Source: Spirogloea muscicola
Lineage: Eukaryota; Streptophyta; Zygnematophyceae; Spirogloeales; Spirogloeaceae
Reading direction: 5' to 3'
NCBI GenBank assembly: GCA_009602725.1
Contig: WELB01000011.1
Span: 1,026,218-1,049,867 of the forward strand
DNA length: 23,650 nt
Positions 11,723-22,970 of this stretch are shown one piece after another (within the stretch, counting starts at the first letter, position 1; every line of letters starts with the position of its first letter). Both the position numbers and the translations under genes were made by a program. The notes beneath the pieces are model-generated. The model did no database searches, was not told the origin of the DNA, and saw only the letters and a list, made by a program, of their open reading frames with translations.

Positions 11723-13193
11723 ATGGACGCCTTGCTTGCCAGCTACGGCGCGGACGACGACGACGACGATGTTGGGGCGGAGGAGCCGCGGCAGAGCACG
11801 GCGGCGGCGGGAGGCGCCACTGCCGCCACGGCGGCCCCTGCGGCTGGCAACGTCGCGCCTTTGGCGACGCCGCGCCCCCGGCCGTCGCTGTTTGCCTCCC
11901 TGCCGCCGCCGGCCTCCGCGGCCATGGCGGCGGCGAGGTCGTCCGCCCCGCTGGCCGGGCGGCACGGCGCCGAGGCTCTGGAGCAGCCTCAGGCCCGAAC
12001 GGCCGTCTCCGGCCCCGCCAGGCCCTCCCTCTTTGGCGTCCTGCCGCCGCCACGGCAGGCTGCGCCGCAGGTCTCGCAGAAGCGCAAGGTGGTACCCTTC
12101 CGGCCGCCTGGCAGCGCGGCTGAACCTCTGGCTGGTAACGACGAGGACGATGGCTGGCGGCCCGGGAAGCACCCTCGAGAGCAGCCTCCAGCACCGGCAG
12201 CGGAAGCGCCTGCCGTCGAGAGAAGCTCGGCGAAGACGGGCCTCGCCGCGCTCCTCCCGGCGCCGAAGCACAGCCTGGGCGTCGGCAGTGCTCTCGGCGG
12301 CGGGGCGGTGCCCGGCAGCCGGCGCACAGTCATGGAGAGCAGCTCGGCTGCCCACCCAGAGGTGCTGCTGGAGGGAAGGCCGCTGCCGCCAGGTCAGGCT
12401 GCCGTGCTCGCGACGGCCCAAGGCCCGGCAGACTTGGCACATACGAGGGTGCTGCCAGGGCACATGTCACCTGCGCAACATTGTGATGGGTCTTCAAGCT
12501 ACCAGGCTGGCGCACCTCGCGAAACCGTGCAGCCGCCTCGAGAAGGCCAGTATGCGGAAGCAGGAGAACAACCTTCCGGCCCAGCACAGAATGAACCCCA
12601 AGCTCACTACCCGCCAGAGGTGTACGCGCAATACCATGGTGGAGCCGTGGGTCAAGCGCAGGACTTTGATCTGGGGCCTTCACCTTCGGATCCTCTTCAG
12701 CAGGCGATGGCGCAGGAGAAGAGGAAAGGCAAGGACGGGCCTGCCCACATAGTGGAGGTCAAGCAGGCGGAGTTGACCAAGGTCACTCCCCGGCAAGAGC
12801 TCCAAGCTCCTGCTTATGGCCCAACATATCAGGTGAACAACTAACCGTTGATGACTTGATCTGATGAAGTTGGACTGTGAATGATGCAAAGCTGATGTGC
12901 AAGTGAAGGCTTATCATCTTTGCAAGGCATGCATGCTTGCATTCCCTTGTACTGCAGCATTGAGTCAATGTCTGTAGCTTAGCACCCTGCCGATGCCGTA
13001 TGACCTCCCACTTTGCATCCTGGTGCAGTCAATTGCCACTTCTGCAAAGGACAAGCCCAGCAAATTGCACCGCAGGAAACATCAGATTACATCACTGTAT
13101 TTTGACATGCGTCAGAAGGAAATGGAGGTCGCTGAGCAAAGGGCCAGAGGTCACATGACCAAGGCCCAAACGCATGCCAAATATGGCTGGTGA
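11723..13193 (+). CDS. PRCC-domain protein (proline-rich, spliceosome-associated family)
   Basis: PRCC-family proteins are nuclear and have been linked to pre-mRNA splicing and, in mammals, to mitotic checkpoint factors. Two exons, 11723-12832 and 13029-13193, join in phase 0 (CAG|GTGAAC, GTGCAG|TCA), giving 424 residues. The N-terminus MDALLASYGADDDDDD is typical of the family (short helix, then an acidic run). The middle is Pro/Ala-rich and low in complexity, with a repeated PSLF(x)2LPPP motif near residues 54 and 101 and KVVPFRPP near 136. The diagnostic C-terminus is conserved: KPSKLHRRKHQI, SLYFDMRQKEMEVAEQRARG and ending THAKYGW. The ATG at 11723 gives the expected family start, and upstream in-frame sequence is not family-like. 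Codon bias toward GCC/GCG is strong in exon 1. Confidence 0.88.
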
Positions 13194-13303
13194 TTGCAGT
13201 ATTTCTGCTGCACCTTTTTAGTGCATGCATCATCTCAAGCTCAGCCTCCTCTGTCTCCCTTTGCTAGCTTCTGGGGGCACGTGACTGGTCCAGAGATGGG
13301 CTA

Positions 13304-14809
13304 TTAATCAAGACAAGATCTAAATTTTTCTTGCGCTGCATTGAAGACGACCTGAAAAATAGCGAGACAGAAGCTCGTAAAGGCTGTGAACTGAGTTGTG
13401 TAAACATCTTGTGAGAGCAATTTTAAGACAGTGTGTGTAGTAAGAGAGGTCAGCTGCACTAGCTGTCACTAGATGTACTTGGAGATGATTCCATGGACAT
13501 ATAAACGACGAAGCAGTTGTGCTGCTAAACAAGTACCTTCAGAGGAACATGATATTTCCTAGCCAATTTTGCACAGTCCTCATACTCGGGATGGGCAGTC
13601 ATCTGCACAGGAGTGATTTCTCTTAGAGACCAGTCATGCTTGCCAAGCACCTGTGCTAGAAGTCATATGGATGGGCCAGTGTCTATCAGGCATTACATAA
13701 TGGATAGGTATTTGGCACCAGCTTGCCACCAAGTGATGCAGCTTTCACGGAAACTGGTCCCCACTCTGTGTTGACAGCTACCATTGACCTTTGCAGGCTC
13801 ACTCGTTCGCACTGATTGATGCGTACACCAAGGCTAGTGGTCTCCTGCTCAAATGCATGCTGCTGAACGTTAGGCTCTGCACAAAAGTCACTGCATCAGC
13901 TAACAGCTGAGGCAAGGCTATTTGGACTTGCCTGCAGGATGATCTGCAGAAGATCATCAACCTGGCCTTTCCTACACAAAACGTTTAGTATCATTCCAGG
14001 TCGTCCTTTCTTCATCAAAGCCTGATTCATGGAAAATCTCAAATTGATCAATGCAACGGAACATGCTAATTAAACTCCTATCGACTTCTCCTCAGCAATG
14101 TGACTCTGTGAGAGTGAGCAGGGCATTTTGCTTGCTGCATTGATTGCTATTGGTCGAGCTGCAGTCACGTCCTCAAGTTGCCGTTGCTTGAAAGTCGGTG
14201 TCATCCACAATTGCATCTCACCTGTACAATCCATGCATCCAAGGCCCCAGCTGCAAGAAGCTGCTCCGTGGTGTATGCCATCTACACCTCCACAGACGAG
14301 CTTTGGTGAGTAGCATCAGAGAGTCATAATTGCTGCACATGATGATGCTCCAGTGCACTGGACGAAGTATGTCACGAAGTATGTCAATTTTAAGTTTGCG
14401 CTCTGCTTGATCAATCTCATCGACAGCAAGTATGACTAACATAATGGCCTACCTACCAGTTGAGGCGACATGTCGTCTACATTTGTCTCCAGGGTCACAA
14501 GGTGCTCCCTCACGACTCCGTCCCCCCGGTGGTCCTCCTGCACGAGCCAATCTGACCCCATGCACAAATGAGACATCAGCATGCGCGCCACGGATGCATG
14601 CAAAGTCGCTTGTGAAGACAAGACGACAAAGCTGTAACCTCTAGGCAAGGTACTAAGCCAGTGCCGCAGAGATGTATCTCACAGTAGACATACCATAGCT
14701 TATACTCGCCCTTCTGCTTTCGCCGGCAGCCAAGGCTTGATCAAGCTGGGGAGGTGCCCTACCTCGGCTGCATGCTTGGACGCTCTTGCGTTGACCGTGC
14801 AGTCTCCAT
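13304..14809 (-). CDS. LarC (DUF111) C-terminal-domain protein, nickel-pincer cofactor family
   Basis: LarC inserts nickel into the pincer nucleotide cofactor first found in lactate racemase. Exons on the minus strand are 14631-14457, 14281-14222, 14021-13932, 13862-13719, 13602-13537 and 13351-13304, perhaps preceded by 14809-14763. Signature blocks: LETNVDDMSPQ; TTEQLLAAGALDAWIVQ; MKKGRPGMILNVLC; ETTSLGVR; VNTEWGPVSVK; AHPEYEDCAKLARKYHVPLK; and the final VFNAAQEKFRS. All match the second half of bacterial LarC (the part called LarC2 in Lactobacillus). The N-terminal half (family motifs around FDCFSGASGDM, HFHEVG and TPTGAA) was not found in the upstream DNA, which runs into repeats. With the optional first exon (phase 2, ATG 14809) the protein has about 209 residues. 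The intron after 13932 has a GC donor (CAG|GCAAGT). It may be a genuine short protein or a truncated gene. Confidence 0.75.
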
Positions 14810-15160
14810 TTTTAAGGATCCTTGACGTCCGGCAATCCGAAGAGCGATATCCAGAGCCAGAAGCTGACCGCAGTCGCCGCCAGCCAGTTGCAGTCCCTCT
14901 CAAACAGTACCGCCGGCTCAAACGGTACCGCATGGAGCTGGTTTCGGCTGCAGCTCTTAGCGGCCCGACTGGCAGGCGTTTGGCGCAGCCAAGAACGGCG
15001 AGCTCCGCGGGCGATGCGACGGAGGTAGCCGCCATGATCGGGGCCCAGCCTCTGGAGGCAGCCCTCCGCCTGCTGGCCTGCGGGCTGCGACGAGGTGATG
15101 GAGAGCGGCGTCTCGGCGGGGCTGTCTTGAGTCTCTGACCTGAGGCTGCTTAGCAGGAAG
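14810..15160. other. Region upstream of the LarC-like gene, no recognised gene
   Basis: GC-rich sequence with open frames on both strands but no family resemblance. A short tandem pair GCGGTAC(C/T)GTTTGAG lies on the minus strand near 14905-14940. The right end (15131-15156, CTGACCTGAGGCTGCTTAGCAGG) resembles 22875-22898, so part of this region is repeat-derived. Confidence 0.4.
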
Positions 15161-15364
15161 AGAAAGTGCTCGCCCATTGAGATTAGGGGCTGGAAAAGCC
15201 AGCCCAAAAAAATCAACAAGGGGGTTACTGAGTGATCCGTAGCTGCTTTGTTTCTTTGTGTGCTTGTTTTTCTTAGCGCTTCCCCTGGCCCCCTTCTCGT
15301 CTTTTGTTGATTCTTATATGGGCTGGCTTTTCCAGCCCCTATTCTCAATGGGCGAGCACTTTCT
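15161..15364. repeat. Inverted pair of the dispersed hairpin repeat (fold-back arrangement)
   Basis: The left arm 15161-15219 (starting AGAAAGTGCTCGCCCATTGA) is close to the reverse complement of the right arm 15304-15364 (ending CAATGGGCGAGCACTTTCT), with about 85 bp between them. Each arm contains the GGGCTGGCTTTTCCAGCCCC core. The right arm is the end of a longer copy, 15240-15364, that matches 8835-8960 almost throughout. No coding sequence is recognised. Confidence 0.75.
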
Positions 15365-15443
15365 TTGTCGGGGAGCAGTCTCAGGGACCAGGCCCGCAGA
15401 AGCCACGTAGATTACTTTCGTGCACTTAGCGCCAGTCTTCATA

Positions 15444-15473
15444 CCCCAATCCTCAATGGGCGAGCCCTTCTTC
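15444..15473 (+). repeat. Short fragment of the dispersed repeat
   Basis: CCCCAATCCTCAATGGGCGAGC matches the 3' part of the dispersed repeat (CCCCTATTCTCAATGGGCGAGC at 15335-15356) but lacks the hairpin core. It lies about 230 bp upstream of the aldolase start. Confidence 0.55.
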
Positions 15474-15502
15474 TTATACAGTTGTTTGGGGACGAGAACA
15501 GT

Positions 15503-15605
15503 GACGAGACGAGATGAGAGACGACGAGCGGGGCAACGTCCGGCTTGGTGGCTGCGACGAGAGGAGACGAGACGAGCGGGGGCACGTCCCGCTTGGTGGC
15601 TCTGC
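15503..15605 (+). repeat. ~50-bp imperfect direct repeat upstream of aldolase
   Basis: Two units follow one another. Unit 15503-15555 is GACGAGAC-rich and ends CGGCTTGGTGGCTGC. Unit 15556-15605 is again GACGAGA-rich and ends CGCTTGGTGGCTCTGC. They lie 95-197 bp before the aldolase ATG, probably within its promoter or 5' UTR. They might carry repeated protein-binding sites; nothing more can be said. Confidence 0.6.
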
Positions 15606-15699
15606 CTTACTGTTCGACTGACTGCCCGGCAACGTGCTATTTGGACAACACCGCGGGCCGGCTCGGGTTTCGGCTGGCGGCGCGCCCCTCCCGACCGCC

Positions 15700-18379
15700 A
15701 TGGCTGGCCTCGCCAGTGCGACCAGGCTGCAGGTAAGGCAGCCATCGAGCCACCCCGTCGGCAACAGCGAGAGTCAACTCGGCTCCGCTGCTCGCTATGC
15801 AGCTTGACGATGTGTCAGGCGGAGCTCTCTGCCCTCTGACGGGCCTTCTTAAAAGGCCACGCGCACTGCATTCTGACGAGACCTTGTGTGGCAAAGACCG
15901 CAAGCATGCCATCAAGCCCCACACTCACACTCACGTAAGCTAAGCTGCAGAGCGCAGCTACTGACACTGGGAGGTGGCTTGCCCGGCCGACGCAGGATGT
16001 TGTGTCCAACGCAAGGAGGCTTGCCACCCCCGGCAAAGGCATATTGGCCAGTGACGAAACCACTGGCACGGTTGGCAAGCGGCTCAAGTCTGTAGGGCTG
16101 GAGAACACTGAAGAGAACCGTCGGGCATATCGAGAGGTCAAAGGTCCTCAGCGCCTTAGTAGTTAGCATTCATACTCACTAACTGTGAGTGCAGAGTCAG
16201 GCATTCACCTGCCGCAGCGTGACATCCGTTAATATTTCTGTACTTGCCTATGAGGACTTTCCTTCCTGCTACTGAGGCTCCAGTTTTATTGCTCACTTCA
16301 CACAGACACTTATGTCCAGGCTAAATAGGGCTCATGCCTACTGCAGGTTCTGTACACTACTCCAGGCATAGGTGCATACCTCAATGGTGTTATTATCTTC
16401 ACAGAGACCTTGCTCCAGTCTACTAAGGCGGGGATCCCCTTTCCAGATGTGCTTCAAGGCCAGGGTATACTTGTCGGCGTCAAGGTGGACTTGGTGAGGC
16501 TCCGGTATGCTCACAAGCTCCCTTGTAATCGTGACGTACTTTGTTCTTTCTGTCCTGACATGCTCTGAGGCAATAGCTGTCTTTTCTCAAGGCGCAGCTC
16601 CATGCCTTGTCAGGCCTCTGCTGGATAGGAGCTGAACTGTCTCAACGTCGCCAGGGTCTGGTGGCAATTGCAGGTACTGAGGGGGAAACAGTGAGCCAAG
16701 GTCTTGACGGCTTGAGCACGAGGTGCCAGCAATACTACAACAAGGTCCACTATTCCTGAGCTACAGTCCTCTCACATTGGCAAAAGGCGTGCGTCTGAGG
16801 ATAGAGTTCCTTCTGTCCTACAAGGTCATGCTTACATAGTAGCTGCCTCTTCTGACAAAAAGCTAAATCCTGCAAGTGCAGGGTGCAAGATTTGCAAAAT
16901 GGAGAGAGGTTATTGCCATCAAAGAGCACTGCCCTTCCAAGCTTGCTCTCAAGCTTGCATCCAGTGCACTTGTCCGCTATGCTTCCATTTGCCAGCAGGA
17001 GGGACTGGTCCCCATTGTGAGTAGCTAATTCTCATGCCTGGAAATGTCCTGCTGCTTGTTGCTGAACGTACACTTGTGGCATTGCCTGCTTGAATGATTC
17101 TAATGTGGAGCCTTGAAACAAACAGGGCACAAGGTTTGCAATGCTGACATTTGCCGTGAAGGTTGTGGTTGGCTTGGATGACACCAATCATGGCCCACAC
17201 CTAGGTCGAGGTAAGCCTTCTAGCACTTCTTGTTGCCAGTTGTACTTATGGTGTAGTGGTTTTGAAAGTCTTGACTCATGCAAGATCCTCTTGACCACTT
17301 TGTTGCAGCCGGAGATACTCATCGACGGCACTCATTCAGCTGAAAAGAGCGCGGAGGTTGCAGAACTTGTGCTCGCAGAAGTGTTCTCTGCACTTTCGTG
17401 TCATCATGTCTGCCTTGAAGGCATCCTCTTGAAGGTACTGCAATTAGCTACTGCAGTACACCTTCTAGATTTGCTGGTTGACAAGTCAACAGCAGCAGAA
17501 CTCTCTGGAAGCATTGTGGCACTCTATGACTTGACTCTGACACCACTCCGTACGTGATGAGCAGCCCCAGATGGTGCTACCAGGCTTTGACAGTGACAAG
17601 AAAGCCACACGAGAAGAGTGCGCTCAGCTCACAATAAGGACTTTACAGCGCGGCCTGCCAGTTGCTGTTCCTGGGATCATGTTCTTGTCTGGTGGTCTGT
17701 CTGAGGAGGTCAGTGGAGTGGCTCGTATATCATCTCCCAATTGTGGTACAAGCATCTGCATCCACTCGCGTTTGAGCCTGCATAGTCTCTGTTAAGTCCA
17801 TAGTGGTTGATTTGAAGTGACTCTTTGCCAACTCTGCTTGCCCTTTGCAACAGGAGGCCACGGAGCAGCTGAATGAGCTCAACGTCATCAAGAAATTAAT
17901 TAGTGACAAAGTGCCCTGGACTCTATCCTTTTCGTTTGGCAGGGCACTACAGGTTTGTATGCCAACAAGCTGAGACTGGCTTAAGTAGCGCTGGGCTTTT
18001 GAATTGAGACTGGCTTAAGTTGCAGTGGGCTTTTGAATCGAGATAGTTTGCAGAGGTATTTGCTATGCATTACCTGCAAAAGGGCTGCTATTTTATGCTC
18101 AACTTGATGCATGCACATCCTCTTCTCTTGGCACCCTTCAGAAGTGCTGACAGTGAAATTATTGCAATCCGTCTTGTGTAGGCCAGCATCTTAAGAATCT
18201 GGGCTGGGGATGCGAGCCAGGTGGAAGCAGCCCAAGCCATGGCAGGGGCACTGGCCAGGGTGAATGCAATGGCGACGCTTGGCAATTACGTAGGACCTCA
18301 CCCATCAAAGTTGACGGGAGACCTTCGGGAGAGCTTCCGGGGATGGCGAAGTGTTACAGAAGTGGCAGACAGCAAGTAA
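15700..18379 (+). CDS. Class I fructose-bisphosphate aldolase, 10 exons including a 6-nt micro-exon
   Basis: Cleaves fructose-1,6-bisphosphate to triose phosphates, or condenses them, through a Schiff base (glycolysis, gluconeogenesis or Calvin cycle). Exons: 15700-15732, 15951-16136, 16347-16493, 16655-16744, 16882-17016, 17205-17210, 17309-17434, 17565-17708, 17854-17952 and 18182-18379. All introns are phase 0 and the product has 387 residues. Family blocks: [101 protein letters not shown]; and SFSFGRALQ. Residues corresponding to the rabbit active site are D46, K119, K158, E199 (micro-exon), K241 (Schiff base, last codon of exon 7), S283 and R319. The short Ser/Thr/Arg-containing leader (about 26 residues) suggests plastid targeting, but this is uncertain. 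The protein ends ADSK and lacks the usual C-terminal tyrosine. Confidence 0.93.
17205..17210 (+). other. 6-nt micro-exon (GTCGAG, Val-Glu) of the aldolase gene
   Basis: GTCGAG is preceded by CCCACACCTAG (acceptor) and followed directly by GTAAGC (donor). The upstream exon ends at VPI (17016, donor GTGAGT) and the next begins at PEIL (17309, acceptor TTGCAG). Without this exon the invariant VPIVEPEIL motif loses exactly VE, including the acid/base glutamate (Glu187 in rabbit numbering). Both flanking introns (188 and 98 nt) are of normal size here. Confidence 0.85.
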
Positions 18380-18873
18380 TGTGGAATCTGTCACCATTGC
18401 TTTGCTACTGTTGGGCTCCAAGACAGCAATCTGACACTTTTCATCAGCTGCTTCACGCCATCTTGTGGGTGTCGTCATGAAGAAACCAAAGCCACAGGCT
18501 CTCACATACTCGAAAGCTGCTGCCTCATCATCTGACGGCTGACTAGCAGCATAGATGACCAGCCAAAGCACGAGATACCATACCACATGTGTTGTGCTGG
18601 CAGACAGTTCTGCAGTTCATGCAGCAACTCAAAGGAGCCGATTTTGGGGACAGGGCCTAGTAACCCACTAGCACATATCTGCTTCCCCTGCAATCCCCTT
18701 CCTAAGGACATATTCAATCGTCACCAACAGATTACACAGAGAGCTTGCAAGAAGTCGCTGTGCGTCACCGCACAATCAGGCGATGATACTGCAGACAGCT
18801 CAAGCAGATGCAAGTGGAGGAGTGCTGGTGTGAGCACGCTGCAAAGGTGGAAGAGGGCCCAAGTTTGCCTCCC
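18380..18873. other. Convergent 3' region between aldolase and PDI, with unexplained minus-strand open frames
   Basis: This should hold both 3' UTRs. On the minus strand two open stretches look protein-like but match no family I know: one from an ATG near 18714 (MSLGRGLQGKQICASG, then KIGSFELLHELQNCL), and one at about 18545-18380 (SDDEAAAFEYVRACGFGFF, then TPTRWREAADEKCQIAVLE). A splice linking them would need an intron of only about 40 nt. They may be chance open frames in UTR sequence. Confidence 0.3.
18732..18736 (-). terminator. Candidate polyadenylation signal TGTAA for PDI
   Basis: TGTAA on the minus strand (TTACA on the plus strand) lies about 140 nt past the PDI stop codon. TGTAA is the usual green-algal poly(A) signal. 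A five-base motif is weak evidence on its own. Confidence 0.3.
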
Positions 18874-21680
18874 TCAGCTGTCGCTCATGAGGTCGTCAAG
18901 GCTAAACTCCTCTTCTGCAGGTGGCTGCCCGTCCTTGCCGTCCCACGGCTCCGTCTCTTCGACGGGCGGAACAACCTCCACAGACTCGGAGCCGCGCCCT
19001 CCCAGCCCAGCCTGCTGCACAAAGTCGCTGAACACGTGGACACGTGGACACAGAGATGTCTCTGCATCAGCGAAGACTGTCATGACCATGGCCAAAGTTG
19101 ACTATTTGTGTAAGGCAAACAAGAAGACTTGTTATGGAGCCTCCCTCTGCATCCTGACAAAGACATTGCACTTATATCTGAATGAAAAGTCTTGCTGTTA
19201 TTGAGGCTGTCAATCTGGCAAGTGGACCCTTCAGAATTGCAGTAGTCAAAAGCAATGTGGTTGTGTCGGGCGAGGCTTATACTCACATAATCGGCTGCTT
19301 GTCAAAATAACCCTTGAAGGGGACAATAAGCTGCTTCTTGACGCTTAGCGCCACGAGCGCAGGGTACCCGTAACCGCCCACGCCCACGGCCTTCTCAAGT
19401 GCCGCCTGCTTGCTGGCTTCAGCCCACACATAGCTGCTTGGCCGCCCCACCCAGTCTACTGGTCAGGCCAGCTTGATGGAGTGCACAATTTCCAGCATAA
19501 AGATGTGCAAGGTGGTTAAGCTGGACGTTGGCAGAACCATATGAGAAAGTCTAAGACAAGGAGACTGCACCTGTACGCACTCTTCTTGAAGTGCTCACTG
19601 ACTTCCTTGAGGATACCAAGGTATTTGTTGCGCCCCTCAGCTCCAGTGTCCAGGATGTTTGGGAGGAAAGCCAGGAAGCAGATGGTGGACTTTGCACAAT
19701 ACTGGTCCAAGACATTCTGAAGGCACATGCCGATAAGCACTGTAAGTCAACCACTGAGACCAACTGGGCTGCCAGCACAACTAGCATAGTCTGTTGAGTG
19801 ACGTCAACCTCTGCTGCACAGATGTAGTGCTTTACTCGTCATTTCAGCTCACCTGATTGCTGAGCTCCAGCACCTCAGGAGCAACTGCGTTCGCTTCTAA
19901 GTGGTCCTGAGCAAAGCTCTCAATTGCTGATGCAGATCTTGGACCTTCATAAGGAACAGGGCTCTCCTTGTCGGCGCCAAAGACCAGGATGGTGGGAAAG
20001 CCCTTGATACCATACTTCCTTGCTAAAGTCTGCAAACATCAATCCAATTTGTGCAACCAAAAACAGTGAGAAACTTGCAGACATGCACTTTGCAGACTGC
20101 CACCAGCGTGCAGTCTTGACGAGTGTACTGATCGCCATGCGGTCCAACGTCCAAGTCAGCTGATGCTGTCTATCCTGGTCAGATGCAAGTGAGAAGTACT
20201 AGCCGTCTCTGAGGTGCTAATGCCCTGACAGTCATACGGCTGACAAAGAGAAAATGCATCATACTTCTTCCACAGTACAGTCCACCTCCCCCAGCTTGAC
20301 TTGCCCCTGCAGGGACTTGGCGGCACGCTTCCATTCTGGCGCAAGTTTCTTGCAGTGCCCACACCTGTCAAACGCCTGCAGTTTTTTGTCACCTTCAACA
20401 AGTTCAATGTGCAGGTGGCCACTCAAAGTAGGCCGAGCTGAGTCCATGGTCGAAGTCAGATAAATGTGGCCCTTAGCGTCTGATTGCATGCGGCTCGAGA
20501 TCAGGGGAGGAGAGCGTAAGCAGCCATACCATGGAGCAAAGAACTCCACCAGCCAGAGATCGGTGCTCTTCAATACTTGCTCCTCGAAGTTGCTGCTCGT
20601 AAGAGTCACAGACCCACTCTTCTCACCTGAGCTGCTGCCGCCCTTCCCACTGCCTCCCGTGGCCTTCCCGGACAGTCTTGCCTGTACAAGGCTCTTCACC
20701 TGCACCAGATACCCAAAGAAGCGTAAGAGCAGTGACGTCAAGAGTCACTAAGCCAACACATGTCTCATTAAAGCTCACACTGTGCAATGCAAAGTCATTG
20801 TCCAAAGCTGATGTCAAAAAAGGTTGTCAAACCCCTGTCCTCTCTGACTTGAAAATCGCACCAAAACCTGGGTCAACTGTGATATGACTTTGAGCAGCCT
20901 CTAGCTCCTACCTGGCTGAGCGCAAAGTCAACAATGGCTTTGGCATCTCTGGGCCCCTGGTAGTCGCTCAGGCCCTTCTTGCCCGGGCTGAAATATTTGA
21001 TGGTCGGAAAGCCCTGGATGCCATGGTCCTGCCATGGGCGTACACTCGAAAGCAAAAATCAAAAGTCACATCTGAAATTCACAAGCACAAAATGGTATTG
21101 CTGGTGGAGCTCTCTCTCTGACCAGCAGATTTGATCACAGAAATTGGTCTGAATCTGGGGTTTTGCCGACGCGCAGCAGACACGACGGCGGCGCTCACGA
21201 AGACGCGAGATAGTGCCCAATCACCTGTGCCAGGGACTGGTGGGCGTCGCAATCCGCGGCGGCGACAGTGGCAACGCCCTTGAGGGCCTTGGCGGCCTGC
21301 TCCCAGGCGGGCGCCAGGTTCTTGCAGTGCCCGCACCACGGCGCGAAGAACTCCACCAACACCACCTTATTGCTTTCTAGCACCTATTGGTAAGGCAGCG
21401 ACGGGCGTCTCAGGCGGCTGTGCTGCTCAGGCCATGAGCGTTGCAGCGGCTGGAGCTCGCTGGCAGTGAAGAAGCGGTCAGCTCGCCCGACACCGTTGTC
21501 CAGGCAATGGGGATTGCGCAGGATAGACCGTCGCACCTTGGCGATGAAGTTGGCGGGCGAGAGCTGCAGCACCGCCGAGTCCGGGCCGTAAAGCGCCAGC
21601 GCCGGGCCAGCGAGCGCCGCCAGGAGGACGACCGCAGCCAGCCATCGGCTGGCGGCGACGGCGGCCGCCGCCGCCGCCAT
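18874..21680 (-). CDS. Protein disulfide isomerase, PDIL2/P5 (PDIA6) type, 9 exons
   Basis: ER-type thiol-disulfide isomerase for folding of secretory proteins. Exons on the minus strand: 21680-21537, 21383-21225, 21028-20912, 20699-20530, 20364-20265, 20029-19853, 19716-19571, 19433-19287 and 19027-18874. Phases match at every junction; the second-domain WCGHC is rebuilt across a phase-2 intron. The product has 437 residues: signal peptide about 1-29 ([19 protein letters not shown]), thioredoxin domain a with WCGHC at 64-68, domain a' with WCGHC at 197-201, then a b-like domain ([34 protein letters not shown]) and an acidic tail ([20 protein letters not shown]). The order a-a'-b and length fit plant PDIL2-2/2-3. 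The tail ends DDLMSDS with no KDEL or HDEL, and none was seen in the following DNA. The start is the only ATG giving a signal peptide. Confidence 0.92.
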
Positions 21681-22255
21681 GTCCGACTATGCGCCCGCAC
21701 TAGCTGGCGGGTCGCCGCCTCCGAGGCTGGCACGCAGTCGGCTGGCCCGCAGGTCGCGGCTGACGGCTCGGCGAGCTGATTCGCTCCAGGTCGAGCGCCT
21801 TGGCCCGAATGCGGCGAAGCCGGAGAGCAACCAGCGGCACGGCGGCGGCTTTGGCGGCGGCGGTGGTGGCGGGCGCTCGCAGGCCCCGGGATTGGCGGCG
21901 TGACTGGCGGTGCCGAACGGGGGAAACGGGGTATCTATCCGCGACGCCGAGACGGCGACTCGGTTCAACGGAGAAGCCGCTTTCTGCCCACTCAGCCAAC
22001 TGTGGTTGAGAGACGGCGGAGGCCGAACCAACGGCCACTCGCAATGGTGGTGACTGATGGAACAAGGTCCAACAGAAGAGAAAGTGGCTTTCCCCCAACA
22101 ACAAAGCCTCGTTAGCAGCCACAAGCTGCTAACCCAAGAGGAAGAAGGCGCGTCCAATCTTGAGAGGAAGCGCGGCCGGTTTGACTGGTGGCTGGGAGAG
22201 CAGTGGCCGTGAGAGGCCCAGCCAAAAGAGAGGAAATGCTTGCATTCCCCACTAC
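21681..22255. other. Upstream region of PDI, no recognised gene
   Basis: Probable PDI promoter and 5' UTR. It is GC-rich and includes a GGCGGCGGC-type run at about 21840-21875. An open frame on the opposite strand starts at the same CATG as PDI but is Gly/Arg/Ser low-complexity with no family signal. Confidence 0.4.
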
Positions 22256-22325
22256 AGAGGCGAAAAAGCTCGCCCTTAGAAGATAGGGGCTAGCAGAAGC
22301 CAGCCAAAAAAGAATGGGAAAAAAC
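22256..22325 (-). repeat. Diverged copy of the dispersed hairpin repeat, inverted
   Basis: AAGCTCGCCCTTAGAAGATAGGGGCTAGCAGAAGCCAGCCAAAAAAG-type sequence, read on the minus strand, gives TTTTTTGGCTGGCTTCTGCT followed by AGCCCCTATCTTCTAAGGGC. This is a clearly related but diverged version of the repeat at 8911-8960 and 15304-15364. Confidence 0.6.
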
Positions 22326-22970
22326 AGAGCCCCCCACCACGTCACTGGGCGGCCGTGATTGGTCACTGTTCGGAGGCAGCGGCGTTGATCGACCGTAGCC
22401 GTGGCACGATCGCTGCCGTCGGCGAGGCCGTGCCCCCATACCAACATGCAGTCGGAGCGGCTTTACTGTCTGGTGTTCTGATTCACTTGTGGGGACTAGA
22501 GTCTTCTATTGTATTTTCCGATTTGTTACCTTTGCTCCTGTTTCAACTTTGACGTCCTCTTACATACTGTCCTGGCTTACTTTGGCCTCCTCTGCGGCGT
22601 CGTGTTTCAGCCTCTTGCAGCGAGCTCAGGCTCATGCTTTGCACCAGAAAGCTGGTCGAGCTTTAGCTGGTCATGCCACGCCATTTCCCGCCGCTACCAT
22701 GGGGAGCCGGTGGATTTCCATATTGCAGGCTCGCTCGCACAGGTGTATCGAATGCGCCTGCCCGTCTGGCTGCCGAGGTCCATGGCTCGCGCGTTGCATC
22801 TGCGTGCCGGTTGTGCCCTCACTGCAGCCTCTGGCTCTGGCCTGGGGACCCGCTACCAGGAGCCCAGTTTCTCCGACCTGCGGCTGCTTAGCAGGGGTTA
22901 CTGAGTTTCGCGTTCCGTCGACTTGTGGCAAGCTATGTAAATTCTCATGTCGGTATCTTTTTGGCTCTTT
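22326..22970. other. Intergenic region with repeat-derived sequence, no recognised gene
   Basis: No conserved gene was seen. At 22873-22906 one frame reads SDLRLLSRGY then stop, and the DNA (GACCTGCGGCTGCTTAGCAG) matches 15135-15155 closely. This suggests remnants of a mobile element whose family I cannot name. Confidence 0.35.

Follow-up and report, generated by a model that had tools for sequence, protein, structure and literature searches.

A putative 6-nt micro-exon carrying the active-site glutamate of a class I aldolase gene in Spirogloea muscicola

A six-base candidate exon at a conserved motif

The 23,650-nt stretch of the Spirogloea muscicola assembly analysed here (contig C11:1026218-1049867; referred to as the window, with its positions used as coordinates throughout) contains a class I fructose-bisphosphate aldolase gene at 15700-18379 on the forward strand. 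Counting a predicted 6-nt micro-exon, the gene has ten exons and nine introns, all in phase 0, and encodes a spliced product of 372 aa; exon 1 is 33 nt long and each of the nine further exons is divisible by three. Exons are numbered here without the micro-exon. Exon 5 closes CCCATT/GTGAGT at 17016 and exon 6 opens TTGCAG/CCGGAG from 17309 (slashes mark exon boundaries). In the 292-nt interval between them, GTCGAG at 17205-17210 has CCTAG directly before it and GTAAGC directly after it. It encodes Val-Glu, the exact gap between the VPI of exon 5 and the PEIL of exon 6, and its splicing would restore VPIVEPEIL. The preliminary description had claimed a phase-0, 6-nt exon that supplies Val-Glu through an acceptor and donor of its own, and this is borne out by the sequence, the frame, its retention in three copies of the gene and a conserved intron flank. 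In our view the hexamer is very probably a real, normally included micro-exon.

A six-base stretch flanked by AG and GT is commonplace in the interval, but the Val-Glu one is not. In 20,000 dinucleotide-preserving shuffles, AG/N6/GT of any content occurred in 14,007, AG/GTNGAR/GT in 25 and YAG/GTNGAR/GTRAG in 0. A second AG/N6/GT hexamer, GTTGTG (Val-Val) at 17162-17167, is found in all three copies and would yield VPIVVPEIL; the flanking sequences, GAAG on its 5′ side and GTTGGC on its 3′ side, look like poor splice sites. The micro-exon donor matches MAG/GTRAGT at 7 of 9 positions, and among the nine donors of the gene one scores 8 and three others 7. Because the codon before GTC is TAG, an in-frame upstream start of the micro-exon is impossible. 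A larger exon that includes the hexamer is ruled out by this TAG immediately upstream, together with a downstream intron whose length differs among the copies.

Val-Glu and the aldolase active site

The spliced product matches the class I aldolase family PF00274 with 464.6 bits over profile positions 3-334 of 349. Deleting Val-Glu drops the score to 451.0 bits, so that the dipeptide contributes 13.6 bits. We obtained matches to 44 distinct PDB sequences named as aldolases, one of them a fusion, the best including chains labelled cytoplasmic and cytosolic fructose-bisphosphate aldolase. In alignments with the three best PDB chains the motifs SDETTG, FAKWR, VEPE and LEGILLK are matched, and the Glu is present only when the micro-exon is included. 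On these four motifs we place, by assumption, Asp33, Lys146, Glu187 and Lys229, and we take the micro-exon Glu to be Glu187 of rabbit aldolase. Losing Glu187 is said to kill aldolase activity, a piece of family knowledge reportedly going back to Maurady et al. 2002. The available parts of PMC9499490 name the same four residues as catalytic, and also report that krill aldolase E188H, a Glu-to-His change at the matching site, retained 74% activity. The krill result contests the essentiality of the Glu in part, and a two-residue deletion is a different change; it is plausible that skipping of the hexamer would give an inactive enzyme.

The C-terminal GYKY of three intronless aldolases is absent from the gene product. 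The conserved C-terminal tyrosine of the family, presumably Tyr363, is thus lacking, and for this reason we claim family membership but not ordinary activity; substrate or activity may differ from those of the intronless enzymes. Near the C-terminal end, four extra residues precede a 10-residue stretch in all three copies.

Three syntenic copies retain the hexamer

Two further copies of the gene lie in syntenic surroundings on contigs C4 and C7, and the regions compared were the window, C4:62500-87500 and C7:1057000-1082500. On C4, BLAST blocks extend over most of the window; on C7 they cover window positions 11932-22463, with gaps. The long blocks are 87 to 91% identical on C4 and 85 to 89% identical on C7. 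GT/AG sites, open frames free of frameshifts and the hexamer are common to all three copies, with AG/GTYGAG/GTAAGC at the same place on C4 and C7. AG and GT sites flanking an exon of at most 15 nt, our definition of a micro-exon, are therefore present in 3/3 copies. The sole base change inside the hexamer, GTC to GTT on C7, is silent for Val and creates a TGA in the reading frame that starts one base earlier. The stop codon is TAA in the window and C4 copies and TAG in the C7 copy.

With exon 1 omitted, coding differences per 1,085 bases number 46 for window-C4, 80 for window-C7 and 62 for C4-C7. The corresponding NG86 ratios of nonsynonymous to synonymous substitution (dN/dS) are ~0.20, ~0.20 and ~0.16, and by this measure the gene is under purifying selection. 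It is extremely improbable that the hexamer arose by chance in a decaying pseudogene or in a variant that does without Val-Glu. The ease with which AG/N6/GT of any content appears in shuffles (14,007 of 20,000) and the missing GYKY would fit such a gene, but the Val-Glu hexamer is rare in shuffles and retained in three copies, dN/dS is ~0.2, frames and GT/AG sites are intact, and the catalytic-lysine motifs are retained.

Two other aldolase gene sets of the genome likewise come in threes. Such sets suggest that the assembly is triplicated, hybrid or phased polyploid.

The intron flank of the hexamer is constrained

Intronic sequence beside the hexamer is nearly invariant. Among the three copies only 2 of 80 columns vary (68 upstream, 17137-17204, and 12 downstream, 17211-17222), compared with 326 of 1,231 other intron columns; the total for the eight introns downstream of exon 2 is 328 variable columns of 1,311. 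The Fisher P of 3e-8 for the flank against the remaining intron columns is optimistic, because the stretch was picked after inspection. Outside the block, the same two introns vary at 27 of 121 columns upstream and 31 of 92 downstream. Of 831 intron windows of 60 columns, the least variable (1 varying) begin at 17137-17139, and the best in any other intron, from 16594, has 4 varying columns. That second most conserved window, 16594-16653, lies in the 3′ end of the intron preceding exon 4. The block is also less variable than the pooled exons of the gene (93 of 1,086 columns from exon 2 onward). In a 10-kb three-way alignment, six non-overlapping 86-column windows are less variable than the block (3 varying) and five others equal it; at least 17554-17639 among these is largely coding, and the uniqueness of the block is stated within this gene only.

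The block contains branch-point-like CTGAC (17144-17148) and ATGAC (17178-17182) and a GU-rich core, and no T-rich tract. We think it probable that this flank is a splicing signal for the hexamer, with a branch point and an enhancer role. Genome-wide, in a search that skips very common words, the interval matched only its three syntenic copies, and we reject a repeat element or introner on this ground.

Several points weigh against the hexamer as a spliced, flank-assisted exon. Its splicing is predicted from genomic DNA, and the 20 nt at its acceptor, with 2 T and 12 pyrimidines, form no T-rich tract. The copies are close relatives, with introns ~84 to 92% identical at ungapped columns, so that their agreement covers a short span of evolution; a short tract could, in addition, be homogenised by gene conversion. 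No relative with a split Val-Glu was found outside this genome among the prokaryotic, viral and PDB sequences searched. The block folds barely better than its shuffles do (z -1.05, a value matched by 26 of 200) and no Rfam family matches it at E up to 1. These two results give no sign of a structured RNA, and because of them the enhancer role is reached by elimination.

The block might instead be some other element, such as an intronic small RNA, an alternative or poison exon or a gene-conversion tract, which would be compatible with a real micro-exon. We consider this unlikely. Its variation is low even beside that of the exons (2/80 against 93/1,086), the copies are syntenic, and splicing to the AG at 17132-17133 would bring in extra sequence that contains an in-frame stop. 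On the other hand, the block folds ordinarily, has no Rfam match and finds only the three syntenic copies; an open frame running through it (17141-17557) is interrupted by a stop on C7; and low variation ceases within ~12 nt of the micro-exon, as for splicing signals.

A further proposal, quite unlikely in our estimate, concerns only origin and would be compatible with a real micro-exon: the upstream intron could have arisen when the end of exon 5 was duplicated in tandem, with a degenerate copy left before the hexamer. Positions 16976-16993 and 17138-17155 are 83% identical, and a local alignment between exon 5 and the block has a score of 13, which 27 of 3000 shuffles attain. This result is one of fifteen comparisons, however; the whole intron gives 14 of 300 shuffles, and introns 16137-16346 (20/300) and 17953-18181 (17/300) score nearly as well. 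The case for intron birth by exon duplication is weak.

Constitutive inclusion or a switch

The preliminary description had also proposed that skipping the hexamer would keep the frame, as indeed its length of 6 and exons that are all multiples of three imply, and that inclusion could act as an activity switch, a suggestion that found no support: the constrained flank fits constitutive inclusion at least equally well. Regulated skipping under particular conditions, which would leave the aldolase in frame yet misfolded or without catalytic activity, appears very unlikely. The preserved frame would allow it, the strongly conserved flank could carry regulatory sites, and a potato invertase 9-nt exon is skipped in the cold according to portions of PMC8483784 and PMC3340406. 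Against this, the accessible sections of PMC8831610 describe intron retention more often than skipping for plant micro-exons, and the genome has aldolase genes with unsplit Val-Glu, which would make this gene a poor point of control. A more elaborate form, in which the block is a regulatory platform setting hexamer inclusion and two-codon splicing turns an aldolase isoform on or off, the remainder of the protein staying unchanged and perhaps serving a non-enzymatic role, strikes us as highly unlikely. Constitutive inclusion is the simplest interpretation and, on the sequence features described, likelier than a switch.

Our survey of the genome (153 Mb, 471 contigs) placed other aldolase loci on C34, C1 and C23 (single open frame), on C137, C9 and C67 (a second intron-containing type) and on C284. 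Val-Glu lies inside a continuous exon in 5/5 of the loci read (C34, C1, C23, C137 and C284), C9 and C67 being outside this comparison. By eye, at least one intron of the C137 aldolase, the one following NATTGK, is in phase 2, whereas the introns of the present gene are in phase 0 only. Beyond this genome, 24 prokaryotic or IMG/VR loci, many of them closely related, were fetched. Two end before the motif, and in 22 of the 22 that span the site it is unsplit and reads [VI]EPE (19 VE, 3 IE); a single motif is common to nine of the 22, and eight of those nine are titled Stenotrophomonas. In this set the Glu is invariant and the Val variable.

Relation to known tiny exons

The Asp in the DPN of the GH32 motif WMNDPNG is catalytic, and the 6-nt exon of chicken cardiac troponin T is not known to encode a catalytic residue. 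In plant acid invertase and fructosyltransferase genes (GH32), a 9-nt mini-exon encodes this DPN, as stated in parts of PMC8831610, PMC3340406 and PMC8483784. The aldolase hexamer resembles it as a tiny exon at a key enzyme motif in sugar metabolism, and the GH32 exon, in the same excerpts, is often missed by annotation. The two differ in that the GH32 exon is 9 nt long, in phase 1 and has had its splicing tested by experiment, whereas the aldolase one is 6 nt, in phase 0 and predicted from DNA; the host proteins are unrelated. Chicken cardiac troponin T provides an exon of the same length, 6 nt, which the available text of PMC4674806 describes as constitutive and aided by a G-rich intronic enhancer, but it belongs to an animal gene. 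In plants, micro-exons of 1 to 15 nt number 2,398 in ten species, including those of APC11, VPS55 and AP2 genes; they often lie at conserved motifs and are commonly missed by annotation, and VPS55 donors are conserved (PMC8831610, in part). Like these, the aldolase hexamer is a very short exon at a conserved motif. The case thus joins other tiny exons already known at critical motifs, and what is new is the conserved intron flank. The word 'aldolase' does not occur in the main text of PMC8831610 or of the MEPDB paper PMC12409088, and in the limited literature searched there was no earlier report of an aldolase micro-exon, of algal aldolase splicing or of a catalytic-residue plant micro-exon.

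A possible order of splicing

With splice sites only 6 nt apart, simultaneous recognition of both would be unlikely. The flanking introns are both short (188 nt upstream, 98 nt downstream), and each could be recognised by intron definition. We suggest that the downstream intron is removed first, so that the hexamer becomes the opening six bases of a 132-nt exon, and that the upstream intron would follow, aided by the conserved 68-nt stretch with its branch-point-like sequences and GU-rich core. Inclusion would then yield VPIVEPEIL with the active-site Glu. In plant micro-exons the downstream intron is mostly removed first and intronic signals are enriched (PMC8831610, section 7); passages of PMC4674806 also favour intronic signals in micro-exon splicing. 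If spliced as predicted, the gene would place a residue that serves catalysis in a core metabolic enzyme on an exon that ranks among the smallest kinds known, and automated models of it may omit the active-site Glu. Since the coding sequence of the gene is no more constrained than the flank, the locus would offer a compact test case for recognition of a 6-nt exon.

Gene structure and an upstream element

Table 1. Predicted exons of the aldolase gene and the conserved block around the micro-exon.
Feature	Position	Strand	Remarks
Exon 1	15700..15732	+	33 nt; starts ATG, donor GTAAGG; ATG, exon and donor identical in three copies
Exon 2	15996..16136	+	141 nt
Exon 3	16347..16493	+	147 nt
Exon 4	16655..16744	+	90 nt
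Exon 5	16882..17016	+	135 nt; translation closes ...GLVPI
Conserved block around micro-exon	17137..17222	+	68 nt of intron, the 6-nt exon, then 12 nt of intron; candidate intronic splicing signal
Putative micro-exon GTCGAG (Val-Glu)	17205..17210	+	6 nt; phase 0
Exon 6 (numbering without micro-exon)	17309..17434	+	126 nt; opens PEIL, closes LEGILLK (Schiff-base Lys by motif)
Exon 7	17565..17708	+	144 nt
Exon 8	17854..17952	+	99 nt
Exon 9 (tenth with micro-exon)	18182..18379	+	198 nt including stop

Upstream of the gene, 15161-15364 is a 204-bp stretch with 51-nt inverted arms that are 94% complementary, within a ~240-bp segment that C4 and C7 lack at the corresponding positions. A genome search gave at least 95 matching rows, often several per element, with 40 of 2,381 initial candidates scored. 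It looks like a non-autonomous transposon resembling a miniature inverted-repeat transposable element, ~340 bp before the ATG of the aldolase gene and in the window copy only.
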